Virus record (IMG/VR): IMGVR_UViG_3300022594_000012
Location: 1-38,880 of that record
Reading direction: 5' to 3' (one strand)
DNA from: a virus
Length of the DNA: 38,880 nt
Part shown: in pieces, positions 11,807 to 36,652 of the stretch
Layout: each line of letters opens with the position of its first letter
How positions within the stretch are numbered: position 1 is the first letter of the stretch
Notes under the pieces: generated by a model
Told to the model about the DNA's origin: nothing
The model's database searches: none
Seen by the model: the letters and a program-made list of their open reading frames with translations, nothing else
Position numbers and translations under genes: made by a program

Positions 11807-13141
11807 ATGGCTAATATTACAAGCCTAATCTCAAGAGTTAGAGTCGAGCTAGGTGACCTAGGCAAGACTTTCGTTACCCATATCACGGGTGATGGAATCA
11901 ATAACCGATTCAACCTCCACTACTCTCCGCTGGACGGCAGAACTGTAGTTGTTAAGCTGACTCTAGCTTCTAATGGCACCACATCTGACATTACCACCAA
12001 AGCTCACATTGAAGAGTCTACTGGTGTTATGGTGCTTCTACAGACAGATAACGTTACCCCCCTTATTCCTGCCGTTGGTGACGTTCTTACTATTAGCGGA
12101 ACATACTTCCGATACTTCACTGGCGCAGAGCTTACTCAGCTTGTTAATGACGCCTTAGTTCAGCACTCGCAAAATGCACTGGATAGCACAGGCCGCAAGG
12201 TTACGATTGACACTCTTCCTGCAAACGAAGAGTACCCGCTAACTATCTACGCGGTTACGCTTGCTCTTTACACCCTAGCTACGGATGCTGCATTTGATAT
12301 CGATATTGCTGCACCTGACGGCGTTAGTATTCCTCGTTCTGAACGTTACCGCCAGCTAATGGAGATGGTACAGACTCGACAGTCTCAGTACCGTGAGCTG
12401 TGTGCTCTCATGGGTATCGGCCTTTACCGCATCGAGGTATTTGACCTCAACCGCATCTCAAAGATGACAAACCGACTTATTCCTCAGTATGTTCCTCAAG
12501 AAGTTGATGACCGCTCATACCCACAGCGCGTCAATCACCCAGCTCCTACCCTTGGAAATGCCCCTACTCCATGGCCTACTGAAGCTGGAGAACTTACTGC
12601 TTACCAGGGTATTGCGTTTAACACTGCTCTTACTTTCAACGACAACTACGCTGGTAAGACGTTTATTGCTAACTTGCTCAACCAGCGTGGTTCAGTGCTC
12701 GTGGTTCAGCCAATTGCACTATCGGTGGCAACTACAGGAACTAGCGTAATCACTGCAGCTTCTAGAACAGCTAACAGCACTACAGTCACTCTCACTACTG
12801 GTGCTCCTCACGGCCTTACTGCCGGAGCTGCGGTTGTAGTTACTGGTGTAGACAGCACGGTAAACGGTGGGGGAACTGTGGCTACTATTTTAGATACTAC
12901 CCACTTCACCATTACCAGTACTATAAACACCGCTCTAGCCCTGACTGGGTTGACTGGCCAGGTCGAGACTAACGTTGCTAAGAACTACACGTTTACCTTC
13001 AACCTAACCTCTGACCAAACCCTAAGACTGGCAGAGCGCACTTACTGGTCGCTTTCTACTGTCGATACGTTCACTAATGAACATATTGAAATAAAGGGCG
13101 GCAACTTCTTTACCGTACGCTCGAGCACCGTTGTACTATAA
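11807..13141 (+). CDS. Head-tail connector (adaptor) protein with C-terminal beta module
   Basis: GGAGG precedes ATG. The N-terminal region (1-220) has the make-up of phage adaptor proteins: ITSLISRVRVELGD, then a helix YFTGAELTQLVNDALVQHSQ, and RSERYRQLMEMVQTRQSQYR. Such proteins form a ring under the portal. The C-terminal region (about 260-444) is beta-rich and includes, at 319-387, a module of the type TVTLTTGAPHGLTAGAAVVV followed by TTHFTITST. The same module type occurs in several other virion proteins here (17490, 32830, 35612). The extension suggests that the connector carries an outer decoration. Connector identity rests on position and N-terminal pattern. Confidence 0.7.
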   Translation: MANITSLISRVRVELGDLGKTFVTHITGDGINNRFNLHYSPLDGRTVVVKLTLASNGTTSDITTKAHIEESTGVMVLLQTDNVTPLIPAVGDVLTISGTYFRYFTGAELTQLVNDALVQHSQNALDSTGRKVTIDTLPANEEYPLTIYAVTLALYTLATDAAFDIDIAAPDGVSIPRSERYRQLMEMVQTRQSQYRELCALMGIGLYRIEVFDLNRISKMTNRLIPQYVPQEVDDRSYPQRVNHPAPTLGNAPTPWPTEAGELTAYQGIAFNTALTFNDNYAGKTFIANLLNQRGSVLVVQPIALSVATTGTSVITAASRTANSTTVTLTTGAPHGLTAGAAVVVTGVDSTVNGGGTVATILDTTHFTITSTINTALALTGLTGQVETNVAKNYTFTFNLTSDQTLRLAERTYWSLSTVDTFTNEHIEIKGGNFFTVRSSTVVL

Positions 13142-13164
13142 ACTTATATTAATTGGAGTAAAAA

Positions 13165-13596
13165 ATGCCTAGAAAAACACTTATACAAAATCGACGAGAC
13201 ACTGCAGCTAACTGGACTAGTGTCAACCCAATCCTTGCTTCTGGTGAGATTGGCGTAGAAACTGATACCAACAAGTTTAAACTCGGTGATGGCACAAGTA
13301 CTTGGACACAGCTGGACTATCAAACTGGTACCCAAGGGCCCGCAGGCCCTACTGGACCACAAGGTCCTCAAGGACCGCAGGGAGAGCCGGGAACTGGCGG
13401 AACTGCTAGTTTTAAGTACCGACCCGATGATGCTCAGTATGTGTACACCATCAATCATAATCTTGGGTTTAACCCAAATGTTAGCGTTATTGATTCCAGC
13501 AGTACGGAGTACTTTGGTGAGGTAACGCACATCAATGTCGATACTCTGACAATAACTTTTACCAAAGCTGTATACGCTACTGCTTACCTATCTTAA
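13165..13596 (+). CDS. Fibre protein with Mtd_N-like head, collagen-like repeats and HNLGF tail domain
   Basis: TGGAGT precedes ATG; 143 residues. Residues 1-52 match the N-terminal domain found in many phage fibres (major tropism determinant N-type): RRDTAANWTSVNPILASGEIG, then ETDTNKFKLGDGTSTW. Residues 55-78 are eight Gly-X-Y triplets (GPAGPTGPQGPQGPQGEP), so the protein is likely a trimer with a collagen-like stalk. The tail, with YTINHNLGFNP and VSVIDSSSTEYFG, resembles the C-terminus of the next fibre (TVNHGFGQW, AQLFDASGN). It lies among connector genes, so it may decorate head or neck. Function inferred as receptor contact or surface attachment. Confidence 0.8.
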   Translation: MPRKTLIQNRRDTAANWTSVNPILASGEIGVETDTNKFKLGDGTSTWTQLDYQTGTQGPAGPTGPQGPQGPQGEPGTGGTASFKYRPDDAQYVYTINHNLGFNPNVSVIDSSSTEYFGEVTHINVDTLTITFTKAVYATAYLS

Positions 13597-13605
13597 GGAA
13601 ATGAA

Positions 13606-16236
13606 ATGTCCAAGTCATATTTAACGGGTATAAACCTAAACGCCAACCCTTTGATGAACGCAAAGGTGCACGTTTGGGGCAGCTCACCCGCTTCATCACC
13701 AAACGTTACTCCAGACGGTACTACTGCCGTAGAAGGTATGATTTCTTCTTATCAGGGAACGTTATACGTATACAAAGGCATTTCTGGTTCTGGAGGTGCT
13801 TGGGCTGCCCTATCTATTACAAGTGGAACAGTTACTGCTGTAACTGGTACTTCCCCGGTTGTTTCTAGTGGTGGAAATACGCCTGCAATCTCTTTGGCTT
13901 CTGGTTACGGAGATACTCTAAACCCATACGCTTCTAAATCTGCAAACTACATTCTAGCCACCCCTAATGGTACCACTGGCGCACCTTCTTTTCGAGCCCT
14001 TGTTTCTGCTGACCTCCCATCTATTGGTAATATTACAAACGCTGGTGCTATTGGCTCTACTTCTGGCCTCGTAGCAGTTACTACTACTTCCGGTGTACTA
14101 ACTACTGCTACTAACACAAACCAGTCTTCTTCAACTTTCCTTCGAGGAGACCTTACTTGGGTAACTCCTACAGATACTAACTATTACCCTACTGCAGTAA
14201 CAATGACTGCAGGAACCACTGCTGGACCACTCGTTGGTCTAACAATGAACTCTGGCTCAGTGACTTCGGCTGCTATTCCGGCAGCAGGTTCTGGAGCTTC
14301 TGGTGTGGTTGTTACGGGTGCCCAGACATTCGATGGCGCTAAGACATTTACGAACCAAGCTACGTTTAACGGTGGTGCGGTAATCGCTGCTGGTCAGACA
14401 CTAAACATGACCAACAACCGAATTACTAACCTTGCTGAACCTGTGTCAAACAGTGATGCTGCAACTAAGTACTACGTAGACAACGTATCTGTTGGTGTTA
14501 ATGCGCACGATGCTGTTGCGGGTGTAGTTGCTGGGTTTACTGGCACATATTTTCCTGGTGGCGGTACTGCAACAAGCGTATCTGGTAACGTTAACACAAA
14601 TACTCTTTCTGTAACTAACAGCGGATTTAATATTGCAGTTGGTCAAACTGTTGCAGGTAGCTCAAACATTCCTACTGGAGCTATTGTAACGTCGGCAAGC
14701 GCACCTAATGGTACTGGCATTACAGTAACTATTGACAAAAACTTAACGGGCACTCTGTCTGCAAACCCATCTATCACTTTCTTGGGTGCTGATGGTGGCA
14801 CTGGTGTTGGCGCAACGCTTACCGCTTCTGCCGTTGGAATCCTTAAATCATCCGATACTAACAGCCAGTACTCTTTTGTTGCTGGTGACCGTGTTCTTCT
14901 ATTGTCGCAGACTACCTCTACTCAAAACGGTGTATACGTTGTAACCACTGCTGGTACAGCTTCTGTTGCTGCTGTATTGACCCGTGCCACAGACTATGAC
15001 AACAGCGAATGGGGCGACATTGCTGCTGGTGACCTAGTGTATGTTATCAACGGTGGTAACGGGGCGGGAACGTATACTTACGGAGGTACTCAGTGGGTTC
15101 AGACTACTAAAGGTATTGCAACAATTGGCTCCGGTGCCAACATTAAGTACAGCGTGCTTATCGGTACTGACAGTCCTTCATTCACGCAGTTCTCTGGTGT
15201 AAACACTGTTCCGTTTGCTACTACTACCTCCGTGGGTATTGCATCCTTCTCAAGCACCTATTTTAGCGTAAATGGTGTTGGTGGAGTTAGCCTTAGCAGC
15301 CTTGGTGCTCTAAACGCAGCTTCAGCAACCAGTGCTACAAATGCAACTAACGTTGCCACAACGTTAGCCTCTTCTAGCTCTACATTTTACCCTACATTTG
15401 TAGGAAGTACCACAAACGGCAACCAGGCAATTAACAACGCTACAACCCTTAGCTTTGTTCCTTCTACTGGTGCCCTAACTGCAGGTTCATTGATTGCTGG
15501 AACTTTAACCGGTGTATCTGGAACATCGTTGGACATTTCGACCCCAGGAGCCGCGACCAGCTCTAACGTCACTATTAAAACGGGTGCAAGCTCTGCCACT
15601 GCTTCTGGAACTATAACAATTGCTACTGGAACAACTAGCCAGACTGGTGGTACTTCTGGAGCTCTTACTCTAAATACCGGTACTGGTGGTGGTACTGCAA
15701 ACAGCTCTGGTGCCATAACAATCCAAACTGGAAACGGTTCAGGAACGTCAGGTAGCTCTGGAAACGTAACTATTGATTCGGGCTCACAGAATGGTAGTGG
15801 AACTTCTGGAACTATATATCTTGGTAACAATTACTCACCTACAATATCAATTGGTAGAACTTCAGGAACAACTACCACTATTTACGGCGCAGTCCAGATG
15901 CCTCAAGTTGGTACTTCTGGTTTTGTGAAAGCCGGTGCTAGCGGAGCGCTGAGTACGTCAACTATTGCGTATGGTGATTTGCCTACTACATCGCTGACTG
16001 CTGTCACAACTACTGGTATTGCTCGTAAAACAACTGCATCAGCAACTACCGGTGCGGGAACCACTATTACCGTGAACCACGGTTTTGGCCAGTGGGTTCA
16101 CGCTCAGTTGTTTGATGCAAGCGGTAACCTTGTTGAAGTTGATATCCAAAACAGTGCAACCAGCAACGGAACAACCATATTTACCTTTGCTGTTACTCAG
16201 GGTGCTACAACATTTAACTACGTAATTATTGGATAG
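13606..16236 (+). CDS. Large fibre protein, 876 residues, repetitive beta structure
   Basis: AAGGAAATGAA precedes ATG. Low-complexity Gly/Ser/Thr/Ala sequence fills most of the protein. A fibre motif TFDGAKTFTNQATFNGG (about 241-257) leads into NRITNLAEPVSNSDAATKYY (271-290), widespread in phage tail fibres. Residues 322-392 form a beta module (NIAVGQTVAGSSNIPTGAIV) that is also found in the sheath. A central segment with SSNVTIKTG, SGTITIATG, SGALTLNTG, SGAITIQTG and SGNVTIDSG (about 645-750) is a regular repeat, probably a beta-helix stalk. The last 75 residues (TVNHGFGQWVHAQLFDASGN) form a terminal domain shared with the gene at 13165. Likely an adhesin. Confidence 0.85.
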   Translation: MSKSYLTGINLNANPLMNAKVHVWGSSPASSPNVTPDGTTAVEGMISSYQGTLYVYKGISGSGGAWAALSITSGTVTAVTGTSPVVSSGGNTPAISLASGYGDTLNPYASKSANYILATPNGTTGAPSFRALVSADLPSIGNITNAGAIGSTSGLVAVTTTSGVLTTATNTNQSSSTFLRGDLTWVTPTDTNYYPTAVTMTAGTTAGPLVGLTMNSGSVTSAAIPAAGSGASGVVVTGAQTFDGAKTFTNQATFNGGAVIAAGQTLNMTNNRITNLAEPVSNSDAATKYYVDNVSVGVNAHDAVAGVVAGFTGTYFPGGGTATSVSGNVNTNTLSVTNSGFNIAVGQTVAGSSNIPTGAIVTSASAPNGTGITVTIDKNLTGTLSANPSITFLGADGGTGVGATLTASAVGILKSSDTNSQYSFVAGDRVLLLSQTTSTQNGVYVVTTAGTASVAAVLTRATDYDNSEWGDIAAGDLVYVINGGNGAGTYTYGGTQWVQTTKGIATIGSGANIKYSVLIGTDSPSFTQFSGVNTVPFATTTSVGIASFSSTYFSVNGVGGVSLSSLGALNAASATSATNATNVATTLASSSSTFYPTFVGSTTNGNQAINNATTLSFVPSTGALTAGSLIAGTLTGVSGTSLDISTPGAATSSNVTIKTGASSATASGTITIATGTTSQTGGTSGALTLNTGTGGGTANSSGAITIQTGNGSGTSGSSGNVTIDSGSQNGSGTSGTIYLGNNYSPTISIGRTSGTTTTIYGAVQMPQVGTSGFVKAGASGALSTSTIAYGDLPTTSLTAVTTTGIARKTTASATTGAGTTITVNHGFGQWVHAQLFDASGNLVEVDIQNSATSNGTTIFTFAVTQGATTFNYVIIG

Positions 16237-16245
16237 TATTAGTCT

Positions 16246-17442
16246 ATGACTAAAAAATATTTAAACAATATCGATTTAAATGGCACACTAACTATTCAAG
16301 GTTCTGGTGGAACTAATGGATATTTTTTAAAAACCGACGGTTCGGGAAATATTTCTTGGGCTTCTCTATCTGGTTCCCTTGGGTATGTTGGTGGCTATCA
16401 AACTACTGCTGCGGCAGGTACGTCAGTTGCGCTTACAGGAATAAACTCCTTAACTAGCACGTCTACACTTACACTGACTACTCCAAGCATAGGTGCGTCC
16501 GGTGGTACCGGGTCATCAACTACACTAACTTCAGGAAGCGTAACCGTTAGCAATGCTTCTGGAAGCTCTACTAGCGGTAACACTGTCATAACCTCTGGTG
16601 CAGCAACGTTATCAAACGCCGGTAACTCGAGCGGTACCGCAACAGCTGGAAATATCTCTTTAGATACTGGCCTTGCTTCGGCTGCTAATGGTTTGGCATT
16701 TGTAAACCAAGGAAGCATTTCAATTGGTGCTGTAAACTCGACTCAAATTCAAATAGGAAACTCGACTAGCACTACTCTACTAGGTGGCCAAACAACTTAT
16801 TCTGCAGGAACTTCATCATTTCCTCCAATAAAACTAACTTCTGGAACAAATACCGCATCTGCAATTGCTGGAGCAATTGAGTACAACGGTGACTTACTGA
16901 CCCTTGTTCACTCTGGAACTGCAGCGGGTAGAAACATGGTTCAGGCAACTGCTTGGGCATATTCAAACGCAAACTCGACCCCTGCAACAACCACAACTCC
17001 AGTATCAATTTTTCAAGCCGGTGCTCAGAAGCTCACGCTAGAAGCAGGAAAGACTTATTACTTTAAGCTTAACTTAGGATTTATTGCTACATTCACTTCT
17101 GGTACTGCATCTATTCAACTAGTACCTACTTTCTCTAACGCACCTGTAAGCATTAACTACACTGCCCTATATCACCCAGGAACTGCGGGTAACGCGCAGG
17201 CATATAGAGTTTCATCAACAACCGCAACTGCAATTAGCCCATCAATTACAGCTACCCAAACCAACGCTGGCGTAATTGTTGAGGGATATTTCCAGTCAAA
17301 CGCTACTACAGGTGGAACCGTTGAATTTAAGTTTCAAATGTCTACTACTGGTAGCTCTACGGTAGTAATTAACGGCTCATACCAGCAAATTACCAAAATT
17401 GGTACTGGTGTTCCTGCTGTGGTTTCTGGTGCTTGGGCTTAA
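16246..17442 (+). CDS. Fibre protein with beta-helix repeats and globular tail
   Basis: Ten bases after the previous stop; no clear ribosome site, so translation is probably coupled. The 398-residue product begins MTKKYLNNIDLNG, like the previous fibre (MSKSYLTGINLNA), so the two N-termini probably share an attachment region. Residues 60-190 have repeats of the kind TLTSGSVTVSNASGSS, NTVITSGAATLSN, GNISLDTG, matching the stalk repeat of the larger fibre. From about 210 on there is a globular beta domain with KLTLEAGKTYYFKLNLGF and SITATQTNAGVIVEGYF, TNF/C1q-like by pattern, possibly the receptor-binding end. Confidence 0.8.
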   Translation: MTKKYLNNIDLNGTLTIQGSGGTNGYFLKTDGSGNISWASLSGSLGYVGGYQTTAAAGTSVALTGINSLTSTSTLTLTTPSIGASGGTGSSTTLTSGSVTVSNASGSSTSGNTVITSGAATLSNAGNSSGTATAGNISLDTGLASAANGLAFVNQGSISIGAVNSTQIQIGNSTSTTLLGGQTTYSAGTSSFPPIKLTSGTNTASAIAGAIEYNGDLLTLVHSGTAAGRNMVQATAWAYSNANSTPATTTTPVSIFQAGAQKLTLEAGKTYYFKLNLGFIATFTSGTASIQLVPTFSNAPVSINYTALYHPGTAGNAQAYRVSSTTATAISPSITATQTNAGVIVEGYFQSNATTGGTVEFKFQMSTTGSSTVVINGSYQQITKIGTGVPAVVSGAWA

Positions 17443-17489: not shown

Positions 17490-18434
17490 ATGCCAGCAAA
17501 AACTACTATCAAACTTAGGGCGGGAACCCAGTCTGGCTGGGCTAGCACCGCCATGACTCAAGCCCTAACTAGCTCATTAATTACTACTGATGCTAGTGGT
17601 AACTTGGTTGCTAGGTATACCATTACAGGTTCTAGCCACACAATTACTGTTGGTCAAGTTCTTACTATTACTGGCGTTACTGTAGCTAGCGGCAACCTTC
17701 CTTACAATATTTCTGGCGGTGTTGTTAGCGGAATTGCCACTACTACGTTTGATATCAAAGTTCCTTCTGGCACTACTGCTGGTGCAGGTTCTGGCGGAAG
17801 CGCCGTTCTTGTTGTTCTAGCTACTGGTGAGGCCGCTGTTGAGACAGATACGTTTAGCCTAAAAGTTGGCGATGGCACAACTGACTGGACAAATATTCCA
17901 TATATTGGTGTACCAAACTTCTATTTAGTCCCTGGCCAAACATCTCTTTCAAATTCTACATCTCCACAGGATTTGTTTGAAAAAAAACTTCCACTTACTC
18001 CAAATACTAACTACCGATTTAAAATTGAGTTTATGCTTGTAGGAATTACTGGAATTAGTAAACACATTACTTTTTCTTTTAAACAGAGTGGTTCCGGACT
18101 GACTGGTTGGAACTTTGCTAGACTTCAATGGTCTGGTGGTACAAACACTAGTGGTACGTATGGTAAATCTACTTCACCTTTTACTGGTTTTGGATTTGCC
18201 GCAACAGTTGGGGCAATTGAAACCGGCTTAATTTTGTACGCAGACAATGCTGACGGTATTGTGTACGCCACAATTGAGGGCATTTTTCAAACTGGTAACG
18301 GTCCCTCTAACTTTGAGCCTAGACTTACATTCAGTGCTACACCGGGAATTAGTGTACAAAATCTAGCTGGTAGCTATGCGACCGTTGAGCAACTATCCCC
18401 TGCAACGATTAACTCCAAGGGTGCTTGGGTCTAG
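17490..18434 (+). CDS. Fibre protein: Mtd_N-like domain split by an inserted beta module, then globular tail
   Basis: AGGAG precedes ATG; 314 residues. The start LRAGTQSGWAST (9-20) and the block ATGEAAVETDTFSLKVGDGTTDW (111-133, shown in pieces as ATGEAAVETD and KVGDGTTDW) correspond to the first and second halves of the N-terminal domain of the gene at 13165 (RRDTAANWTS and ASGEIGVETD). About 85 residues, 25-109, lie between the halves and match the beta module of other virion proteins (HTITVGQVLTITGVT). Residues 150-314 are a beta domain (TNYRFKIEFMLVGI; IVYATIEGIFQTG) like the end of the gene at 16246. A fibre or surface adhesin is likely. Confidence 0.8.
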   Translation: MPAKTTIKLRAGTQSGWASTAMTQALTSSLITTDASGNLVARYTITGSSHTITVGQVLTITGVTVASGNLPYNISGGVVSGIATTTFDIKVPSGTTAGAGSGGSAVLVVLATGEAAVETDTFSLKVGDGTTDWTNIPYIGVPNFYLVPGQTSLSNSTSPQDLFEKKLPLTPNTNYRFKIEFMLVGITGISKHITFSFKQSGSGLTGWNFARLQWSGGTNTSGTYGKSTSPFTGFGFAATVGAIETGLILYADNADGIVYATIEGIFQTGNGPSNFEPRLTFSATPGISVQNLAGSYATVEQLSPATINSKGAWV

Positions 18435-20622: not shown

Positions 20623-20936
20623 TGGGCGCCCGTAAAGTTGCTCGCATAGTACATACCGTTGTAGGTATTACTAGCTCTGATAACCCCGCTGAAAAAGCGG
20701 GCAAGGTTGTAGCTGCTGCGGTAACTGCTGCCCACCCAGTTGTGGGACGTGTTCTCAGAAAACCAATTCGTAAAGCAACTGAGGCAGTTGTAAACAAAGG
20801 AATTGAAATTGCAAAAAAGCCTGAAGTTCAGGCAGCTGTAAAAAATACGGTTTCCACCGCAGGTCGCCACGCTAGGTCTTTAATGGACCAGGGAGTGCGA
20901 AAAGCGAAGGCGTTTAGAGAAGGTAAAAATGGCTGA
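20622..20936 (+). CDS. Basic, Ala/Val-rich helical protein of 104 residues
   Basis: Starts at TAATG and overlaps the next gene by eight bases. The N-terminal half has a moderately hydrophobic helical region (VVAAAVTAAHPVVGRVLRKP) and the C-terminal half basic amphipathic helices (KKPEVQAAVKNTVSTAGR; SLMDQGVRKAKAFREGKNG). It could associate with membranes or DNA. No family recognised. Confidence 0.75.
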   Translation: MGARKVARIVHTVVGITSSDNPAEKAGKVVAAAVTAAHPVVGRVLRKPIRKATEAVVNKGIEIAKKPEVQAAVKNTVSTAGRHARSLMDQGVRKAKAFREGKNG

Positions 20937-21210
20937 AACTAAGAAATTTGGGCCCTATAAGGGTTCTGCTGCTAATGGTGGCCGCCCTATTTATGTATAT
21001 AAAACTAAGGGCAAAGATGGTAAATGGCACACCACTTCTAAGAACAAAGCTCGTGCAGACTACGAAGGCAAGCACGGTAAGCTACCTAGAGATACCGATG
21101 TTGACCACAAAAACAACAAGCATGATGATGACCGTAAGTCTAACCTACGTCCTCTAAAGCATGGTAAGAACACCGCTAAAGAAAACAAACGTAGAGCTGG
21201 TAAAAAATGA
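20929..21210 (+). CDS. Small HNH-like nuclease within the basic gene chain
   Basis: The 93-residue product ends with an HNH-like core: DTDVDHKNNKHDDDRKSNLR (Asp59-His60, Asn72), then PLKHGKNTAKENKRR with His78. There are no zinc cysteines, unlike the larger HNH protein at 21970. The N-terminal part (GRPIYVYKTKGKDGKWHTT) is a small beta segment, similar to DNA-binding parts of HNH homing enzymes. Likely cuts or nicks DNA; whether it is a homing enzyme or part of packaging is unknown. It overlaps neighbours on both sides, so it is integrated into the operon rather than a free insertion. Confidence 0.75.
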   Translation: MAETKKFGPYKGSAANGGRPIYVYKTKGKDGKWHTTSKNKARADYEGKHGKLPRDTDVDHKNNKHDDDRKSNLRPLKHGKNTAKENKRRAGKK

Positions 21211-23647: not shown

Positions 23648-25621
23648 ATGACTATTTATAAACACCCTGGAGTTTATGTAAATGAGCTCCCGCTTACAGT
23701 TACCACTAACGCATTTGGCTACTCGGCTATCGCTGCTGGTGCTGTAGTTGCACAATTTGCAAAGGGCCCAACTACGGTTACCCGAGTTACTTCTTATTCT
23801 CAATTTGAAGATAAGTTCGGCAGCCTAAACGGAAGTTATCCAGCTACTTACAGCGTTAAACTATTTTTTGATAATGGTGGAACTGACCTGTATGTACGTC
23901 GTGTAGTTTCTTCACTTGCACCAAGAGCAAGCGTAGTTATTCACGATGACACTGCTGGAACCCCTGCTGTGGTGACTACAATCGAGTCAAAGTACATTGG
24001 TAATGACACCATTAACTTCCGAGTTAAGGTTGACAATAAGACTCTTATTGGCAACTACTATTACTACGATTTCCACGTGTACTACAGCGATGGTGTTCAA
24101 GATGTTGAGGTTGAACGGTTTAACGCTGTTAGCTTTGACCAGCCGGACTCTAGCTCATACATCAAAAGCATTCTTGATGTACTGTCTAGCTATGTTCGCG
24201 TGTCGGGCAATGTTACTGCACCGGGTACGGGTAAATCAGTTGAATCAACATACCTTCCTCTAACGGGTGTCACTACAGAGGTAGGACCTACAAAGTATGA
24301 CTATACTGGTGATGTTGCCTCTGTATCTAACTCTCCAGTTACATTTGTAGCAAATATTACAGGTAAAACTGGAACAGCAGCTTCAGGCTCTGTATCTTTG
24401 ACACTAAACAGCGCAGACGCTGAAATCTCAGTGAATATGGGTATTTCTGGAACCGGAATTGATACTGGAACTACTGTTGCCGCAGTCAATGGCACATCAT
24501 TGACGCTAAGTAAGGTGACTACCAGCTCTCTAAACGCAACAGCACTTACCTTTACAGCTAATATTAGCAATGCAAAAATTAGCGGCCTGAGTGGTTCGGC
24601 ATCTGTTACTTTGGTATCAGCAAACCCTGAAATTTCAGTAGGCATGGGAATTACTGGCCCTGGTATTCAGGATTCAACTACAGTGGCTGCAATTTCTGGA
24701 ACCGCTCTTACATTGTCTAAGAATTTGCTAGTTCAGCCATCAGGAACCGTTTCGTCATTTGCAACGTTTAATGACTTTAACGTTGTTGACCAGCCATTGG
24801 TGTTCTTCTTGCCAGACGTTCACAAGTTCTTTACTTCGGGTAGCGTTGTAGACGCTCAGTACGTCTATAACTCAATTATTGCTTGGTCAGAAACTTACAC
24901 CAGTCGGTTTACGGTTGTTGATACTCCTGCAAACTACGAAGTTACAGATGCAACTTCTTTTGCAAATGGACTTACTGCTACAAGCCGTGCTGCTGTTTAC
25001 TACCCACACATCTACATTAAAGACACTGCCGCTGGTGGAAGCTCGATTCGTAAAGTTAACCCGTCGGGTGCTATTACTGGATTGTACTTGTTTAATGACC
25101 GCAAGTCTGGTCCTTTCAAGACTCCGGCAGGCATCAGTGCAACTCTTGCGGATGCAATTGCAATTGAAAAGCTACTCACCAATGCTGACCTCGATGCTCT
25201 AAACAGCCCGAGCGAACCATTGAACGCTATTCGTAACGTTCCTGGTGCTGGCATCGTTGTTATGGGTGGCCGCACTCTAAAGCAAGACGGTACCGCTAAC
25301 CGCTACATCTCAATGCGCCGTTCGCTGACATATATCGAAAAGAGCTTGTCTGACCTAACTCAGTTTGCTGTTTTTGAGAGCAACAGTGAGGCTCTATGGG
25401 CACGTATTACCACCGTCCTAAGTGCATTCCTGAACACCTACCGTAACCAGGGTGGTCTTCGTGGTGCAAACCCTTCGGACGCATTCTTTGTAACATGTGA
25501 TGCAACTAACAACTCAGCACAGTCAATTGCTGCTGGCATTGTTAACGTTGATGTCGGTGTTGCACTGCAATACCCAGGTGAGTTCGTAGTAATTAACCTA
25601 TCGCAAATCGTTGGCCAGTAG
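23648..25621 (+). CDS. Tail sheath protein with inserted tandem beta modules
   Basis: AAGGAG precedes ATG; 657 residues. The start YKHPGVYVNELPLTVTT is typical of phage sheaths, as are the N-terminal domain YVRRVVSSLAPRASV, the central KSGPFKTPAGISATLAD and the C-terminal domain with GRTLKQDGTANRYISMRR, LSAFLNTYRNQGGLRG and NVDVGVALQYPGEFVVINL. The C-terminal domain polymerises and contracts; the middle part faces outward. Between the N-terminal and central parts (about 225-375) lie two similar segments with NMGISGTGIDTGTTVAAV and GMGITGPGIQDSTTVAAI, absent from ordinary sheaths. Confidence 0.95.
   Translation: MTIYKHPGVYVNELPLTVTTNAFGYSAIAAGAVVAQFAKGPTTVTRVTSYSQFEDKFGSLNGSYPATYSVKLFFDNGGTDLYVRRVVSSLAPRASVVIHDDTAGTPAVVTTIESKYIGNDTINFRVKVDNKTLIGNYYYYDFHVYYSDGVQDVEVERFNAVSFDQPDSSSYIKSILDVLSSYVRVSGNVTAPGTGKSVESTYLPLTGVTTEVGPTKYDYTGDVASVSNSPVTFVANITGKTGTAASGSVSLTLNSADAEISVNMGISGTGIDTGTTVAAVNGTSLTLSKVTTSSLNATALTFTANISNAKISGLSGSASVTLVSANPEISVGMGITGPGIQDSTTVAAISGTALTLSKNLLVQPSGTVSSFATFNDFNVVDQPLVFFLPDVHKFFTSGSVVDAQYVYNSIIAWSETYTSRFTVVDTPANYEVTDATSFANGLTATSRAAVYYPHIYIKDTAAGGSSIRKVNPSGAITGLYLFNDRKSGPFKTPAGISATLADAIAIEKLLTNADLDALNSPSEPLNAIRNVPGAGIVVMGGRTLKQDGTANRYISMRRSLTYIEKSLSDLTQFAVFESNSEALWARITTVLSAFLNTYRNQGGLRGANPSDAFFVTCDATNNSAQSIAAGIVNVDVGVALQYPGEFVVINLSQIVGQ
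24335..24763 (+). repeat. Tandem protein-level repeat inside the sheath gene
   Basis: Residues about 230-304 and 310-372 of the sheath share the order SGSVSLTLNSADAEISVNMG / SGSASVTLVSANPEISVGMG, then TTVAAVNGTSLTLSK / TTVAAISGTALTLSK. The DNA has diverged, so the duplication is not recent. Related modules occur in the fibre at 13606 (residues 322-392) and the baseplate fibre at 35612 (196-262). Confidence 0.8.
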
Positions 25622-27262: not shown

Positions 27263-29584
27263 ATGTCTGATAAAGACTTAACTGGTAAAGATTTAGCAAA
27301 AAATCTTACTACCAGTAAGGCAGCGGCTGCTGATATCGCTAAGTCTGCTAAAAAAATTGAAGATAGCTTAAAGGCTGCTGCCCGAGCTACTACTGGCGCA
27401 TTTGGTGGTGGAATTCGAGCCACCTTTAACCAGATGACGGGTACAAGGCAGTATGGTGTTACTGGAGGAATTCCTGGTCCTGCAACATTTGATAACAGCC
27501 TTATGCGTCCTGGACTTGGTCTTTCGGACTTTACTAACTTCGCTTCCGGAATGTCAAAAGGCTTTTCAAACTTTCTTCCAGATGTAAGTTCTGCAGTTCA
27601 GCGTGCTGGAAACTATTACAACGCCACTATTATGGGTGGTTTTAGAGGCTCTCAAAAACTAAGTAGCAACAACGTTGATGACCGAACTTTTGGTGTCCTA
27701 TCATCTATGGGTGGCGTCACAAGTGCTGGCTCAAGCGCTGAGGTTGCTAATATCTTTGCTAACCAGGGTATGGTCGCTGGTAGTGAAGCATATATGCGAA
27801 ATGTTCGCGCTGTAGGTAACGCTGCTAGATATCTAAACATGGATAACGCCACTGCAGCTAAAGCTATTGGTGGCCTTGGAACAGGTGCGTCTTCCTCTAA
27901 CTTGATGCGTAACTTTGGTATTTATACCACTGACCCGACAACTGGTAAAGAACGCAGTATGTCGGATATTTTTGGTGACCTTGCCAGCAGACTTAGTGGC
28001 GTTAATGGGGCAAATGCAACTCCAGAGGATGTTCAAAACTCAATTCGTAAGGGCGCACTTGGTGCGTCTATTGCAAACTCTGGTTTGACCGATACGCAAC
28101 AGACTTTGTTTAAGCAATACATGATTGAGCGTGCTCAAGGCAACAATATGGACCTTAGCAACCAGTCTACAATGGACAAACTTAACAGTTCAGTAGATAA
28201 CCCTATGAATTCATTTATGAATTTAGAAACTTCGGGTGAGGGTGCTCAAAAGAATGCTACTGGAGCATACCTTGATGGTATTAAGGCTGTAACTGGAACT
28301 CTGACTGGTCTTGACGCTGTGGCTGGGCGACTAGCATCGGTATTAGGTGGAGTTACTTCAGGTATGCAAGTTCTTATGGGTGCCAAAACAACTCAAGGAC
28401 TAATGGGTATGGCGGGCTCCAGTATCAACCTCATCAGTAGTGGTATTGAGGCCATGATGCAGGCTGACCCAACGCACCTTTCAGAGCTATTCTCTGGTAT
28501 GGCTGGTGTTGCTACTGGTGGTGTGGGATTGGCGGCAACTGAAAATACTGCTAATGCTGGTTTTCGGGCAGGAATTTTTGGTGGAAGCGGAGCGACTGGA
28601 GAGGGCGGCCAATATAAAAACTCAAAAACAGGAAGCACTTCTAAAACCGGTGGTGGAGATAACTCAACTCCATTTGGTGGTCTAGACCAGGGTGGCTACA
28701 CCATTACCACTGGTACCAATACTGTTGGCCAGCCTTTGGCAGGAAAATTACCGACTGGTGGTTGGCAATTTACTACTAAAGAACCTAGTGGAAACCACAA
28801 AGGTCAACAGCACAAAGCAATTGATTACCCTGCCCCTAAAGGTACTGCCGTTATGGCTGTTGCTGATGGTGAGGTTGAGGAATTTTTTGATGGGGTTAAA
28901 AAAGACTCTACTATTGACAAAAACGGAAATCCCAATTGGCATGGTGTTGGGGATGGTAAAGGCAATTATGTAAAGCTAAACCATGGCATTGGAAAAAATG
29001 GTAAAAATATTTACACTATTTATGAGCACTTGGGGTCAGTTACCGTAAAAAAGAGTCGTAAAAAGGACGGTGCCGGTGACCAGGTTAAGAGGGGAGATGT
29101 AATTGGTTATGTTGGCCTTACTGGCGATACGTCGGGTGCTCATTTGCATTACGAAGTTAACGAGGGCGCAACCAAAGTTGACCCAAAGAATCTAAGTTCT
29201 CTTCTTGGAAACTCCACTACTACTGGCAAAATTTCAAAAGCGCAAGCATCTGCTGCAAGTAGTTTGGTAAATGCCGTTATGAGTGCCTACGCTGGCGACC
29301 CTGGCGCAATTCAGGCGCTAATGAATGCTACAGGTGTTAGCGCTACAATGTCTAAATATGGCGTCTCTGGAAACTCTACTTCTCCAGCAAATCAGTATGC
29401 AAATGCTGGAGATACTGGTGCTACAGGCGGTGGTGCCGGTGGTGGCAGCAACGTTACAAATAACGTTGGTGGAATCACGGTTAACATAAAAGACGCTAGC
29501 CCAGAGTCTGCTCAAAAGTTTGCTCAAATTGTTCAGGACTACCTAAACAACCAAACTCTAACTTCTAACCTAGGGAGCTACTAA
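27263..29584 (+). CDS. Tape measure protein with M23 peptidase domain
   Basis: AGGAAG precedes ATG; 773 residues. The N-terminal region is Ala/Lys-rich helical, and residues 120-440 are Gly/Ala-rich with helices, typical of tape measures. Residues about 500-650 are a peptidase M23 (LytM-like) domain: HKAIDYPAP with His517 and Asp521, YEHLG with His589, and GAHLHYEV with His627 and His629, so all expected zinc and catalytic residues are present. It likely opens peptidoglycan during DNA entry. With the usual 0.15 nm per residue, tail length would be near 115 nm. The end shares one base with the next start. Confidence 0.88.
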   Translation: MSDKDLTGKDLAKNLTTSKAAAADIAKSAKKIEDSLKAAARATTGAFGGGIRATFNQMTGTRQYGVTGGIPGPATFDNSLMRPGLGLSDFTNFASGMSKGFSNFLPDVSSAVQRAGNYYNATIMGGFRGSQKLSSNNVDDRTFGVLSSMGGVTSAGSSAEVANIFANQGMVAGSEAYMRNVRAVGNAARYLNMDNATAAKAIGGLGTGASSSNLMRNFGIYTTDPTTGKERSMSDIFGDLASRLSGVNGANATPEDVQNSIRKGALGASIANSGLTDTQQTLFKQYMIERAQGNNMDLSNQSTMDKLNSSVDNPMNSFMNLETSGEGAQKNATGAYLDGIKAVTGTLTGLDAVAGRLASVLGGVTSGMQVLMGAKTTQGLMGMAGSSINLISSGIEAMMQADPTHLSELFSGMAGVATGGVGLAATENTANAGFRAGIFGGSGATGEGGQYKNSKTGSTSKTGGGDNSTPFGGLDQGGYTITTGTNTVGQPLAGKLPTGGWQFTTKEPSGNHKGQQHKAIDYPAPKGTAVMAVADGEVEEFFDGVKKDSTIDKNGNPNWHGVGDGKGNYVKLNHGIGKNGKNIYTIYEHLGSVTVKKSRKKDGAGDQVKRGDVIGYVGLTGDTSGAHLHYEVNEGATKVDPKNLSSLLGNSTTTGKISKAQASAASSLVNAVMSAYAGDPGAIQALMNATGVSATMSKYGVSGNSTSPANQYANAGDTGATGGGAGGGSNVTNNVGGITVNIKDASPESAQKFAQIVQDYLNNQTLTSNLGSY

Positions 29585-30849: not shown

Positions 30850-30856
30850 GTGAGAC

Positions 30857-31132: not shown

Positions 31133-32411
31133 TTTGGTTCATAATAAATTTAGAAAAGGTACTAACTTTACAGTTAGTTGGCCATCTGTGCCGTCCTTTG
31201 GGTTGCAGCCTTTGAGAATAGATTTAATTCAAAAGCAATATCATCACGATGTTGCTGTACTAGAGTACTCTATGGTTAGCCCTCTTTATTTTGATACTGT
31301 TAAAACTGGACTATTGGTTGAGTTTACCTGGACTCAAGAAGGTTTGAGTAGAACTTGGATTGGCTACGTATCGTCTATTGACCGAGTAGTAAATAGCCGT
31401 CGTGATATTAGAATGAAAATCCACTGTGTTGGTGCTAGCTACCCACTAAAGCAGCGAGTTACTAGGGTATTCCAAAACTCAACTATTCCAGAAGCTGTAG
31501 AGGTTATATCAAAAGAATTCGGGTTTAATTACCGTGGCGTAAATGATAGTAGGAGATTTCCTCAGCTTACTATGGCGGGTCACTCATACTGGGAGTGGAT
31601 GCACGAACAGGCTAAAAGAATTGGTTATGTCCTTGTTGTTGATGGTACTAACCTGACGTTTAAGCCAACAGATGATGTTATTAATGAGCATTTTAGTACT
31701 ACCCCAGTAATGAGCTATGACCCTACTCCAACAACTTTAAATAACCTATATTTAGATAGAACTCTGGACTACTTTAAAGCACTCAATGGCGAGCACATTG
31801 AAACTGCTAAAGAACTGCGTATGAACAAGATTGTTGGTGGTGTCGACCCTGTTACTAATGAGGTTATAGTGTCTACCTCTCAGCCTAATACTCTTGGAAA
31901 CTCAATTAGAGATAACGTTAGTGACGTTTTATTTGATGAGTATAAGACTACTGAAGTTGCGAATGGTGGTAACGCCGTAATTCAAGCTGCAACTGGTAGG
32001 GCTCAGATGGCTCGCTTTAATTTGCCTGCTGAAGCAAAAGGTCAGGGTGACCCTAGATTAGTGCCTTTTGGAACAGTGATTATAGCTGGAACCGGCGAAT
32101 TAACTGACGGATATTGGATTGTTGAGGAAGTAACTCATTCAATTCACCGCTCTGGGGACTATATGGCTAGTTTAAAAATTGCTACAGATGGCTTAGGAAA
32201 TACTAGCCAATCGACGTTTAGAAGCAGAGATAATAGTACTGTTGGCAGTGTAAACTTAAATGAGGCTCTTAAAAATAAAGGCAAACACTCTAGGTTGTTC
32301 TCTAGAGAAGATGCTAGGCCTGTATTTTTTCATAACGTTGTTAAAGTAGATAACCAGGGTTTTAATCGTACTCCTGCATCATGGAGGAGTGGAAAGGCTA
32401 AGGCTAGATAA
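31125..32411 (+). CDS. Baseplate hub protein, gpD/gp27-like
   Basis: GTG 31125 (428 residues) overlaps the LysM gene; TTG 31134 is an alternative start. NFTVSWPSVPSFGLQPLRID and VLEYSMVSPLYFDTVKTG, then VEFTWTQEGLSRTWIGYVSS resemble the first hub barrel; LKQRVTRVFQNSTIPEAVEV, and GHSYWEWMHEQAKRIGYVLV are the typical gpD/VgrG-type middle part. It forms the trimeric hub to which the spike binds. Codons are A/T-ending, as in other low-copy baseplate genes. The end shares a base with the next ATG. Confidence 0.85.
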   Translation: MSSLVHNKFRKGTNFTVSWPSVPSFGLQPLRIDLIQKQYHHDVAVLEYSMVSPLYFDTVKTGLLVEFTWTQEGLSRTWIGYVSSIDRVVNSRRDIRMKIHCVGASYPLKQRVTRVFQNSTIPEAVEVISKEFGFNYRGVNDSRRFPQLTMAGHSYWEWMHEQAKRIGYVLVVDGTNLTFKPTDDVINEHFSTTPVMSYDPTPTTLNNLYLDRTLDYFKALNGEHIETAKELRMNKIVGGVDPVTNEVIVSTSQPNTLGNSIRDNVSDVLFDEYKTTEVANGGNAVIQAATGRAQMARFNLPAEAKGQGDPRLVPFGTVIIAGTGELTDGYWIVEEVTHSIHRSGDYMASLKIATDGLGNTSQSTFRSRDNSTVGSVNLNEALKNKGKHSRLFSREDARPVFFHNVVKVDNQGFNRTPASWRSGKAKAR

Positions 32412-32833
32412 TGGCTAATCAAAATCCTATCGAATATGCTATAAAATTGCCTTTTTCTTTCGATAGCTATGGCAACGTTTACAAAACAAGTAACCAAAAC
32501 GAGATATGGAAAGACAGAGTAATTTCGGCTTTGGGTACTGCTGCGGGTGAGCGAGTAATGCGCTCGGACTATGGAACAAAAATTCCATCACTGTTTTTTG
32601 ATACTCAGGATGCACTTGTGGCAGGAATTACTAAGGAAATTACCGCTGTTTTTGCTAGCTATCTTCCTCTACTAACCTTGCTAGGTGTGAGGGTTGCTTA
32701 CGATGAGCTAACTGGCCAAATGACTGCAGACGTTAGCTATAAACTTCCAAATCAGACTTCTGACATAACTTCGGTAAACCTAAGCTCTGTAATAATTAAC
32801 AAAGCTAATCCCCCATATGAGGAGAAACTATGA
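32411..32833 (+). CDS. Baseplate wedge protein, gp25-like
   Basis: Starts at TAATG; 140 residues. It contains the family core GTAAGERVMRSDYGTKIPSL (42-61) with Glu47-Arg48 and the D-Y-G turn, after the helix EIWKDRVISAL. The C-terminal beta part is VRVAYDELTGQMTADVSY. gp25-like proteins start sheath assembly on the baseplate. Followed by an ATGA overlap and GAGGAG for the wedge J gene. Confidence 0.88.
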   Translation: MANQNPIEYAIKLPFSFDSYGNVYKTSNQNEIWKDRVISALGTAAGERVMRSDYGTKIPSLFFDTQDALVAGITKEITAVFASYLPLLTLLGVRVAYDELTGQMTADVSYKLPNQTSDITSVNLSSVIINKANPPYEEKL

Positions 32834-35169
32834 CCACTCCATCAAGCAATATCCCCGTCTCAGTAGACTACACGAGTCGTGATTACTACTCACTTCGTGA
32901 TGCACTAATCAATCGTGTTATTGCTAGAGTTGGCCAGAACAGGTGGACTGGAAATGACCCATCTGACTTTGGTGTAGCTCTTATTGAATCATTTGCGTAT
33001 ATGGGTGACCTGGTCAACTACTATATTGACCGAGTGGCTAATGAGTCCTATTTGGGAACAGCTACTCAGAGACAAAACGTTTTGAATCTTGCTTCCATGA
33101 TTGGGTATACAGCGGGTGGGTATACTTCAGCAGTTGCCAACGTTACCTTAACAACTATCGGTGGATACAACGCCCCGATTGGTGCCTCACAACTTACCGG
33201 TGGAATAGCTAGAATAGTAACCGCTAACGATAATACATTTGCTGAAGGCGATAAAATTGTTGTATATGGTCGTGACCGCTCTGAGTACAATGGCTTGGTT
33301 ACTATCACAGGAAAACCTCTTGGAACAAACGAAATTGAGTATGTTCCTGCAAGTTTTTCAGTTACTGCTTCAGGTGACGGTGCAGCTGTAACCTACACAA
33401 CCACAGGGTCTCACACTTTATTATTGGGACAAATTGTAACTATTAGTGGATTCACGGGTGGCTCTGCTGGGTTTAACCTTGCAAATAAAACAATAACCGG
33501 TGTTACTGATACAACGTTTACGGTAGCAGGAACGCCATCTGGCTCATCTACCGGTAGCGGAATAGTTGTGTACGCTGACATTGCCACATCTTCTGATGTC
33601 GGAGGATTTGTTCACAGTGTTGGATTTGCAAATGTTCCTGCGGGAACCCAAATAGTTGCTGACGTAACGCAAGACAACACCGTTACTCAACTTATTTTTA
33701 CTACATTGGCTCAGGCAAGTGTGCCGTTTATTAACCCTAATGGAACTGTAGGAACTACTACTGTTCTAGCTAGACATGGAATAGATGTTGCTACGCTTCC
33801 TGGTAACCAGGCAAGTACCGCAATTAGCCCCGACATTAATGGAGAGCTAATTGGTTACTCGTCAGGTTTGCCAGACCAATCATTTTCTTTGCTTGAAACT
33901 GAAGTGGATATTTCAACCATTAAGATTTATGTTGAAAATGGTAACGCGTTTGAGACTTGGACTTCTGTCCAGCATCTTGAAGACCATTTGGGGACTGACA
34001 AGGTATTTAAAGTAGTTATTGATGGTGACTATAATATTTATATTCAGTTCGGTGATGGTATTGGCGGAGCAATTCCAACTGCGGGTAACCGCATCAAGGC
34101 GTCATACTTTGTTGGTGCTGGGCTAATCGGTAACATTCCTAAAGGCTCGATGACATCTATATACGATGTTCCTGGAGCAACAGGCACCACTAAAACCCTA
34201 ATTATGTCTAAAGTAATTCCAGCAAACCTAGACGCCGCGACTGGCGGTGAGATGCCTGAAACCCTTGACAGTATTAGGCACAATGCTCCTAGGGCTCTTC
34301 GTGCTCTTACTAGAGCGGTTACTCTTGAGGACTTTGCAAACTTGGCTGTCTCTATCCCACAGGTTGGAAAGGCAAATGCTGTTGCAGCATTGCCAACTTC
34401 AGTATCTGTGTATATTGCCCCCGAGAGAAGTTCCGGAAATTCAGAGGCTACCCCAGGCATAGATAACACTGGAACGGTAACCTCTTCTTTGGTTACTTTG
34501 AAGGGGTTGGTGGCTGGTTACCTCTCAGATAAAGTTCAAATTGGAACTACTGTTAACGTTCTAGACCCAAGATATACTTTTGTGCATATTAAAATTCAAT
34601 ACTCAAAGGTTAGTAGCTATTCCCAGGCAGATATTGAGGCAGCAATTAAAGCAAAATTATTGACAGAGTATTCTTACGAAAACCTTGATTTTCAAGCTAC
34701 AATCACCCCCCAAAGTATTGAGAATGATTTACGGTCAATTGATGGCATTACTAATATTTACATCAGTGACCTTGGTACGGTAGATAGCAGCGGCCGTAAT
34801 ACCCTTGCCGGTGCTCCAGATGAAATTTTTGTTTTTTCAACAAACTCGACATATCTGAATTTGCGGGCTGCAAATACTACTACTGGGTTGAATGGCCTAC
34901 AACTTGTAGCTGGTACTACGCTAGCGTTAACACCGGCGTTTAACCCTAGTATATTTGTGTATACTGCTGCCACATCAAACTCTTCTGTCAATGTTACGGC
35001 AACAAGCTCAGATTCTGGACAAAGCATTTCTATTTCTGGTTTGAACACTGGAAGCGGGGCTTCAAGAACAGTATCTTTGTCTACTGGAAATAACACCATA
35101 CCGGTAGTCGTTACTGCTGCGGACGGTGTTTCAACCCAGACCTATACTGTAACGGTTGTTAAGTCATGA
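32830..35169 (+). CDS. Baseplate wedge protein, J/gp6-like, with extra beta modules and cadherin-like end
   Basis: ATGA overlap and GAGGAG upstream; 779 residues. The start YTSRDYYSLRDALINRV and SDFGVALIESFAYMGDLVNY, then ATQRQNVLNLASMIGYTAGG is diagnostic of J-like wedge proteins; later RALTRAVTLEDFANLAVSIP and the C-terminal wedge part with SYSQADIEAAIKAKLL agree. Two copies of a beta module (about 108-172 and 176-250) are inserted early. Residues 674-779 are a cadherin-like beta sandwich (LQLVAGTTLALTPAFNPSIF; TVSLSTGNNTIPVVVTAADG; TYTVTV). So the wedge probably carries surface decorations. The stop overlaps the next start as ATGA. Confidence 0.92.
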   Translation: MTTPSSNIPVSVDYTSRDYYSLRDALINRVIARVGQNRWTGNDPSDFGVALIESFAYMGDLVNYYIDRVANESYLGTATQRQNVLNLASMIGYTAGGYTSAVANVTLTTIGGYNAPIGASQLTGGIARIVTANDNTFAEGDKIVVYGRDRSEYNGLVTITGKPLGTNEIEYVPASFSVTASGDGAAVTYTTTGSHTLLLGQIVTISGFTGGSAGFNLANKTITGVTDTTFTVAGTPSGSSTGSGIVVYADIATSSDVGGFVHSVGFANVPAGTQIVADVTQDNTVTQLIFTTLAQASVPFINPNGTVGTTTVLARHGIDVATLPGNQASTAISPDINGELIGYSSGLPDQSFSLLETEVDISTIKIYVENGNAFETWTSVQHLEDHLGTDKVFKVVIDGDYNIYIQFGDGIGGAIPTAGNRIKASYFVGAGLIGNIPKGSMTSIYDVPGATGTTKTLIMSKVIPANLDAATGGEMPETLDSIRHNAPRALRALTRAVTLEDFANLAVSIPQVGKANAVAALPTSVSVYIAPERSSGNSEATPGIDNTGTVTSSLVTLKGLVAGYLSDKVQIGTTVNVLDPRYTFVHIKIQYSKVSSYSQADIEAAIKAKLLTEYSYENLDFQATITPQSIENDLRSIDGITNIYISDLGTVDSSGRNTLAGAPDEIFVFSTNSTYLNLRAANTTTGLNGLQLVAGTTLALTPAFNPSIFVYTAATSNSSVNVTATSSDSGQSISISGLNTGSGASRTVSLSTGNNTIPVVVTAADGVSTQTYTVTVVKS

Positions 35170-35585
35170 TAAAAGATTCTGCTGGTAATCAAAGATTTTA
35201 CGGCATATACAGAGCTGTAGTTTTTGACAACAAGGACCCCAATAATCAGGGAAGACTTCGCCTTCGTATTCCTCAAGTTTTGGCAAACACGCCAACTGGC
35301 TGGGTTTGGCCAAGTAATCCTGCGGGAGTAACTGTTGGTACTCCGGAAATTGGCCAAGGTATTTGGGCAATGTTTGAAGGTGGCGACCCTTCTCACCCAA
35401 TGTGGGTTGGTGTTTTTGGTAAAGAAATGGGCTCACATACCAATGTTGCAATCAAACCTGCGCCCTCTAGTAAGGCCTTGCCATCAAACGTAAAGGTCTT
35501 ATATAACGAAGATGGCAGTAAAAGTATTGACCTTATTAACAGTTTAATTAGCGTTGCGTCGGTTATTGACGGCGGAAGCGCGTAA
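35166..35585 (+). CDS. Baseplate spike protein with gp5-type OB fold
   Basis: 139 residues, starting at ATGA. IYRAVVFDNKDPNNQGRLRL and RIPQVLANTPTGWVWPSNPA, then GQGIWAMFEGGDPSHPMWVG are the standard gp5/VgrG OB-fold motifs. There is no lysozyme domain or long needle; the C-terminus is short and ends SLISVASVIDGGSA. The same ending occurs in the next protein (SIVAGVIDGGTP). It probably sits on the hub encoded at 31125 and leads the puncture. Confidence 0.85.
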   Translation: MIKDSAGNQRFYGIYRAVVFDNKDPNNQGRLRLRIPQVLANTPTGWVWPSNPAGVTVGTPEIGQGIWAMFEGGDPSHPMWVGVFGKEMGSHTNVAIKPAPSSKALPSNVKVLYNEDGSKSIDLINSLISVASVIDGGSA

Positions 35586-35611
35586 AATAATAAAGAAGCC
35601 TAGGAGAAAAA

Positions 35612-36652
35612 ATGGCTAATTACCCAAGAGTTGCCGTGTCGTTTACTGACAGAGTTGATGAGCGGGATACAGTAGTTGCACTTGATGTAAACTCGCTTTA
35701 CTATGAAGTTGCCGCTATTGCTACTGATTTAGGTGCTGGAACAACCAGTATGGGCAGTAGCACGCCGGGCCTAAAATACAGTGCTGCTTGGGGTATTGGG
35801 TCGTTTGATTCAACTATAACCACTTGGAACGGTGGTTTACAGGCTCGTATACAAAATATTGAAAATGGTCTATACAAAACATATTACGGCAGCTTAGACA
35901 TTACTGGTAAAGATGGCTTTAACACAATAAAAAGTCTTAATGCAAAAAACGTTGGTCTAACAATTCTTCAGGGAACCGTAACTTCTGCTACAGTAACCTA
36001 TGGCGCGTCTGATGGAACTACAATCAGCTATAACGCGTCTAACACGTTTACTGTAGGACAAAAAGTTACTGTTACTGGTTTAGGAATTGCTACTGGCAGC
36101 CCACTAAACTTGTCTCAACAGACCATCACTTCCTTAATTGGCTCAGCACCTACGTATGCTGGGTTTACTATGGCTTCGCCTACTGTAACTGGAGTTACTG
36201 CGGCTACTGTTGGTGGAAGTACTTCTCTAAATGTTACTGGAGACATTAGCCAGGTATTTACTGGTATGCAAATTATTGGTACTGGCATAGTTTCAGGAAC
36301 TAAGGTTTCTGGAGTCAGCGGTCAAGTTGTCCAAATGGATACTGCTGCAAGTAGCAGCAGCAGTGGAAGTGTAAGCATTACCTTTAAAGTTATTGGAACT
36401 TCTAGCGGTACCGGCTCGGCAACAGCATATCAAACCACATCACTGCAAGAGTGGCAAAAAGATGGTGGAACTGTAGTTGCCTCAATTAGCCCAGATGGAA
36501 ACCTACTTGCTGTAGGAACTGCAGCAATTGGTGGTAATACATCTGTTGGTGGAACATTGTCGGTTACCAAAGCCGCTACATTTAGCGATGTAGTCAACAT
36601 CTCTGGTGCGGTTTCGATTGTTGCCGGTGTCATTGATGGCGGAACCCCATAA
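35612..36652 (+). CDS. Baseplate-associated fibre-like protein with two beta modules
   Basis: AGGAG precedes ATG; 346 residues. The N-terminal part (VSFTDRVDERDTVVALDVNS) and LQARIQNIENGLYKTYYGSL, are probably attachment parts. Residues 120-190 carry one module type (NTFTVGQKVTVTGLGIA) and 196-262 the other (SQVFTGMQIIGTGIVSGTKV). The C-terminal part has ASISPDGNLLAVGTAAIGGN and TLSVTKAATFSDVVNI, a common phage fibre pattern, ending with VIDGGTP as in the spike gene upstream. The combination suggests a surface protein attached to the baseplate. Confidence 0.75.
   Translation: MANYPRVAVSFTDRVDERDTVVALDVNSLYYEVAAIATDLGAGTTSMGSSTPGLKYSAAWGIGSFDSTITTWNGGLQARIQNIENGLYKTYYGSLDITGKDGFNTIKSLNAKNVGLTILQGTVTSATVTYGASDGTTISYNASNTFTVGQKVTVTGLGIATGSPLNLSQQTITSLIGSAPTYAGFTMASPTVTGVTAATVGGSTSLNVTGDISQVFTGMQIIGTGIVSGTKVSGVSGQVVQMDTAASSSSSGSVSITFKVIGTSSGTGSATAYQTTSLQEWQKDGGTVVASISPDGNLLAVGTAAIGGNTSVGGTLSVTKAATFSDVVNISGAVSIVAGVIDGGTP

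Follow-up and report, generated by a model that had tools for sequence, protein, structure and literature searches.

The virus record IMGVR_UViG_3300022594_000012 of IMG/VR, which at 38,880 bases is in its entirety the window analysed here, carries nine copies of a small β-barrel domain of ~60-70 residues, distributed across six unrelated virion proteins: a putative head-tail connector, a large fibre, a second fibre (fibre 17490), the tail sheath, a J-like baseplate wedge and a baseplate fibre. The copies fall into two families, T1 and T2. By computation we see homology within each family, the predicted fold, sites that are empty in related phages, and shared sites at which T1, T2 or nothing is found in exchange. 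It is very probable that the nine segments are independently folding barrels that behave as cassettes, with gain, loss and exchange both from phage to phage and from protein to protein. Because related phages lack the inserts, or have other versions at the same sites, we regard the domain as a plug-in surface cassette that different phages share. Judged from its gene set, the window belongs to a contractile-tailed phage, with terminase, portal, major capsid, putative connector, fibres, sheath, tube, tape measure and baseplate (named by homology and position). Compared with their counterparts in the Streptomyces phages BRock, LuckySocke, pSt2308 and GiJojo, its sheath, wedge and connector show 30-37% identity.

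The modules were sought with two profiles, A9, made from 30 T1 sequences with wedge copy B as the sole window copy, and A8, made from 27 T2 sequences including sheath copy A; most sequences in both come from other phages. Over the whole record, at a threshold of E<=1e-3, A9 finds five places and A8 three, and nothing else. A first-pass annotation, made from the letters alone, had proposed nine segments in two families; the five places are its five T1 segments, and the three are among its four T2 segments. The families are thus recovered by unbiased searches, the large-fibre copy through profile-profile comparison only, and the coordinates given by the annotation prove correct within a few residues. 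The modules are:

12728..12964, + strand: T1 in the putative head-tail connector (coding sequence (CDS) 11807-13141); A9 core 12770-12952, E 1.7e-11
14566..14784, + strand: divergent T2 (T2b) in the large fibre (CDS 13606-16236); hhalign 92% to T2, single-comparison E 5.5e-7
17571..17816, + strand: T1 in fibre 17490 (CDS 17490-18434); A9 core 17607-17795, E 1.8e-7
24365..24559, + strand: T2 module A of the tail sheath (CDS 23648-25621); A8 E 7.5e-20
24587..24763, + strand: T2 module B of the tail sheath, in tandem with A; A8 E 1.4e-13
33199..33309, + strand: T1 module A of the J-like baseplate wedge (CDS 32830-35169), a divergent, partial match; A9 E 1.4e-5
33367..33561, + strand: T1 module B of the J-like baseplate wedge; A9 E 2e-18
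36005..36178, + strand: T1 in the baseplate fibre (CDS 35612-36652); A9 E 1.6e-9
36197..36388, + strand: T2 in the baseplate fibre, immediately after its T1; A8 E 1.1e-10

With its own family profile each of the nine copies scores above all of ~5,200 composition-preserving shuffles of modules and host proteins. This includes wedge copy A (20.9 bits versus a shuffle maximum of 13.8), the weakest T1, which aligns with the middle of the profile only and reaches hhalign 86% together with its two orthologues, and the large-fibre copy (13.2 bits with A8 versus 10.9). As a control, random 75-residue pieces of module-free window proteins mostly stay at <=2-5%, and the one partial match, at 26%, overlaps a T2. 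Pairwise BLAST among the nine joins fibre 17490 with wedge copy B (1e-10), the baseplate fibre with fibre 17490 (1e-5), the connector (1e-3), the two sheath copies with each other (5e-14) and sheath copy A with the baseplate-fibre T2 (4e-8); wedge copy A and the large-fibre copy give weak results. When single modules were run by tblastn against annotated phages there was no match, probably because low-complexity filtering masks the module sequences.

AlphaFold models were made of isolated modules, one T1 (wedge copy B, 30-row alignment) and one T2 (sheath copy A, 27-row alignment). The T2 model has six strands and a predicted local distance difference test score (pLDDT) of 93.4; in the T1 model (pLDDT 87.1) there are seven strand segments together with a short helix. 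In the Protein Data Bank (PDB), the best neighbour of the T1 model is the E1 FCCH domain (UBA6 215-296; Z 8.8, root-mean-square deviation 2.3, 79/81 residues), so that in prediction T1 superposes over its whole length on an FCCH-type barrel, and the endosialidase barrels of phi92 (Z 8.2) and endoNF/K1F (Z 7.8) are also near. For T2 the best neighbour is 8eci, the Arthrobacter phage Bridgette decoration protein (Z 9.2, 71/74 residues). A sequence search with the T2 profile picks out this protein too (E 7e-5), so that here profile and fold agree; the LKA1 tailspike (Z 8.4) and the Mystique tail tube (Z 7.3) follow. The neighbours of the two models overlap, with E1 FCCH domains, endosialidase barrels, the LKA1 tailspike, the Mystique tail tube and the CUS-3 coat protein in common, and the T1 and T2 profiles match one another at hhalign 79%. 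T1 and T2 are probably two branches of one fold. Neither a lack of profile similarity among the segments nor differing folds, the outcomes that the annotation had named as telling against it, was found.

By the structural neighbours of both models, T1 and T2 are predicted to be six-stranded β-barrels rather than immunoglobulin (Ig)-like sandwiches. In this respect the annotation's comparison with Ig-like domains does not carry over to the fold, as the modules are modelled instead as a barrel of the FCCH/endosialidase type. Ig families are absent among the Pfam matches of T1 and T2 members, though absence from such lists does not amount to exclusion. The Pfam E1_FCCH model (PF16190) gives weak matches in 6/14 T1 members (best 5e-4), and at E<=1e-3 it matches 5/77 representative module-bearing proteins (best 2e-7); wedge copy B, at 15.2 bits and E 0.023, does not reach its gathering cut-off of 29.5 bits. 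A literature search found no paper that connects FCCH domains with phage virions.

Eight sheath relatives (L007-L014), 58-79% identical over the matched parts, have 526-534 residues versus 657 in the window, and lack both T2 modules; at the junction L014 reads DYTGDTGSLA-TVASYT versus DYTGDVASVSN-[T2]-[T2]-PSGTVSSFAT in the window. The end of the insert is the point at which similarity to the solved sheath of a Streptomyces contractile system restarts (query residue 366). Presence and absence at the same orthologous site, with clean borders, is thus observed, and the occupants of this one site differ by phage: the window has two T2 there and L069 has three T1, L072 probably has a single divergent T1 (single-domain E 4.9e-5), and most other sheaths have nothing. 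At a second sheath site L015 has a T1. The first-pass annotation had thought the presence of modules in a sheath unusual; extra domains of sheath proteins were, however, already known; they are usually Ig-like and lie at a distance from the tube, and a role in adhesion or stability has been proposed for them (PMC9230969).

At least seven connector orthologues (352-361 residues) have a plain short β-turn where the window has T1, with the sequence NLVVDDNGDGTYTATL in relatives and NLV-VDDNGDGTYTATLSL as a further example. The region matches the Pfam LtfC-like sandwich domain in orthologue L140, and on these alignments T1 takes the place of a short β-turn in such a domain. Another orthologue, L141:627-1916, has no T1 at the usual site and a different insert of ~66 residues (residues 336-402) in a loop further along that domain. 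In fibre 17490, T1 splits an Mtd_N domain, the second half of which restarts in the Pfam match at residue 108 (profile position 14); in a neighbouring protein (CDS 13165-13596) Mtd_N is unsplit. No module is detected in 60/98 wedge orthologues. Wedge inserts concentrate in the N-terminal region (reference residues ~101-138) and near residue 490, and are T1 in most and T2 in L072, so that the N-terminal region has T1, T2 or nothing, depending on the phage. Pairwise alignments slide, so this N-terminal insertion point may be off by as much as some tens of residues. The orthologues of a further protein, gp36666, have T1 or T2-like modules at several positions.

The last domain of the wedge is a Cadherin-like sandwich (PF12733, E 2.3e-12; residues 698-777, window 34921-35160). 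Many wedge orthologues have a C-terminal extension of ~80-115 residues at this position and others end without one, which suggests that the C-terminus has another add-on.

How might the same modules have come to reside in six proteins of one phage? In sister phage G006 the gp36666 orthologue (L056:13780-15489) has a module that is 65% identical over 79 residues (E 7e-33) to the T2 of the window's large fibre, and direct comparison of these two host proteins finds no similarity beyond the module. That module is absent from the window's own gp36666 and from L055, and the large-fibre orthologues of sister phages G006 and G005 are without it. The pair is the one case for the window phage of modules at least 65% identical in non-homologous hosts; further pairs of non-homologous proteins share modules at 50-68% identity. 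The annotation's suggestion that unrelated virion proteins of one phage carry the same small domains is borne out by profile matches in all six, and its view that these were moved as cassettes gains from the empty sites at orthologous positions together with the 65% pair. Two adjacent proteins of another contig, L299:12036-13364 and L299:13483-14814, which fall in separate groups after module masking, have T2 modules 68% identical to each other, a candidate local copy.

Modules in different window proteins are 30-41% identical. With one exception, every copy scores higher against a non-homologous protein of another phage than against any other protein of the window; the exception is the copy of fibre 17490, which matches the window's wedge best. 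The fibre 17490, baseplate fibre, connector and wedge copies are closest to their same-site orthologues (57-66%). Given this pattern of best matches and the closeness of same-site orthologues, the modules look as though they had been drawn from a shared pool, not all at one time, and passed on by descent afterwards. Module base composition is near that of the hosts, the largest differences being in the connector (0.517 versus 0.476) and the large fibre (0.422 versus 0.470), and no direct repeats beyond control were found flanking the modules; there is therefore no sign of a mobile DNA element.

Such modules are not confined to the window. A limited sample of IMG/VR, queried with a consensus-like T1 sequence and a DNA pattern for the T2 motif, yielded at least 361 modules in at least 235 proteins, a survey biased toward consensus-like members because the queries were themselves consensus-like. 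BLAST between module-masked proteins (E 1e-6) placed the hosts in 84 groups, an upper estimate for the sample since the grouping may split distant homologues. Representative hosts match Pfam families for nozzle, SU10-type adaptor, collar, sheath, J-like wedge, minor tail L, tail tube, Dit and minor capsid proteins, and PHROGs families for head decoration, tail fibre and wedge proteins. One would think, as the first-pass annotation did, that so many hosts in one phage would be unusual; against this sample the window is not special. Among related records, which may be fragments, G009 has seven T1 and G020 six, and G013, G015, G017 and G018 have none. A protein of ~1175 residues in relative G007 (L170:3650-7174) has at least three T1 and two T2 modules, and its homologues on several other contigs differ in length and module content.

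Several explanations other than cassette exchange must be weighed. The similarity might be compositional, with low-complexity stretches rich in Thr, Ser, Gly and Val converging on GxxVxVxG without homology. The modules and the fibres around them are indeed Thr/Ser/Gly-rich, and filtered BLAST recovers nothing for single modules; but none of the shuffles reaches any of the nine scores, the remainder of the fibres, equally rich in Thr and Ser, gives no profile match, and the models are compact and confident, with sequence matches to Pfam E1_FCCH and the Bridgette decoration protein, so that the chance of convergence seems to us almost negligible. A recent burst of copying within the genome of the window phage would explain nine copies in one record and the tandem sheath pair, which at 51% protein identity may be a local duplication. 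The identities between window proteins and, for most copies, the best matches in other phages, however, lead us to reject within-genome copying as the means of spread, the sheath pair excepted, and even that pair is identical at only 98/198 DNA positions; a recent burst is highly improbable. The modules might, finally, be ancestral to each host protein, inherited vertically with many losses and no movement between proteins, a view to which the connector and fibre 17490 modules lend themselves, being common to the nearest relatives at the same site. One would then not expect different module families at one site in different phages, nor sheath T2 modules that are missing from the nearest relatives and the other sheaths examined, nor a 65% match located in a non-homologous protein, and we consider strictly vertical inheritance unlikely.

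Exchange of barrels as cassettes, which we favour, also has points against it. The Foldseek E-values to the PDB are 0.02-0.05, and Z values of 6-9 are within the range of common barrels; with such modest values the common ancestry of T1 and T2 is likely and not proven. Two of the nine, wedge copy A and the large-fibre T2, belong only weakly to their families. The large-fibre/gp36666 pair is 62% identical in DNA, with 33/79 third positions equal and unrelated flanks; synonymous positions are thus nearly randomised, so the transfer was not recent, and it is possible that the two proteins acquired the module independently from a third source. The direction of gain or loss is inferred by parsimony and not from a dated tree, the lack of flanking repeats means that no recombination mechanism is seen, and the surface exposure and function of the modules are matters that we infer.

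What might the barrels do? Under the cassette reading, six-stranded barrels of ~60-70 residues, FCCH/endosialidase-barrel-like in T1 and decoration-protein-like in T2, would be plugged into surface turns or between domains of unrelated virion proteins. The host protein would provide a tolerant site, which different barrels can fill. The modules would be surface-exposed, and may serve as non-catalytic accessory domains that make weak contact with the cell envelope or cement neighbouring subunits. Adhesion and stabilisation are the leading candidate roles and are not separable by sequence. That the barrels are structural cement, serving subunit contacts and virion stability rather than binding the envelope, is a serious possibility, to which we give somewhat less than even weight: the nearest T2 structure is a capsid decoration protein, a tail tube and a capsid insertion domain contain similar barrels, and cementing is among the roles proposed for extra sheath domains (PMC9230969). 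The presence of modules in fibres and spikes, and their mosaic, dispensable distribution, would instead suggest an adaptive accessory role.

Variation in phage tails is usually thought to be tolerated mainly in the fibres. In this case the same small barrel is accommodated at defined sites of the sheath, of the baseplate wedge and of a putative neck protein, and its presence and type differ among relatives; contractile machines would thus have natural insertion points and interchangeable parts. The role of promiscuous virion β domains becomes testable, as natural pairs of related phages exist with and without a barrel, or with T1 or T2 at the same site. A broader proposal is that T1, T2, the Bridgette-type decoration protein, the endosialidase and tailspike barrels, the P22-type coat insertion domain and the Mystique tail-tube barrel form one homologous cassette superfamily, with conserved landing sites in sheath, wedge, connector and fibre open to any member. 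We offer this tentatively, and think it rather doubtful; if true, it would place a promiscuous virion fold beside the Ig-like domains.

Two other features of the window may be mentioned. A Peptidase_M23 domain (window 28808-29185, E 3.3e-18) lies inside the tape-measure protein (CDS 27263-29584), where it probably serves cell-wall passage, and a small open reading frame at 20929-21210 is HNH endonuclease-like by eye.

Among known systems the closest parallel is the Ig-like domains, which are promiscuous on phage virion proteins (Fraser et al. 2006, by the accounts in PMC9230969 and PMC8718954). Like T1 and T2, these are described there as small β domains in many unrelated virion proteins, horizontally exchanged and probably accessory; unlike them, T1 and T2 are predicted to be six-stranded barrels, lie within host turns or between host domains, and have documented empty sites and T1/T2 exchange. 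The survey of domain mosaicism by Smug et al. 2023 (PMC10684548) likewise reports homologous domains across unrelated phage proteins, as in the window phage, with recent shuffling in receptor-binding and baseplate proteins; a search of its text gave no mention of the tail sheath. E1_FCCH, whose barrel T1 shares by prediction and whose model some module-bearing phage proteins match, is a ubiquitin E1 domain, and T1 is without ubiquitin-system context. The endosialidase barrel (PF12195), the LKA1 tailspike barrel, 8eci and the P22/CUS-3 coat I-domain, itself a six-stranded β-barrel (PMC11243222), are virion-embedded barrels of similar predicted fold, but each has been described in one protein, unlike T1 and T2, and homology of T2 to them has sequence support for 8eci only. 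That virion proteins shuffle domains is established (PMC10684548; Fraser et al. 2006, cited through PMC9230969). The present analysis adds a predicted non-Ig barrel that acts as a promiscuous cassette of sheath, connector and wedge, at sites that are empty in some phages and whose occupants are interchangeable.

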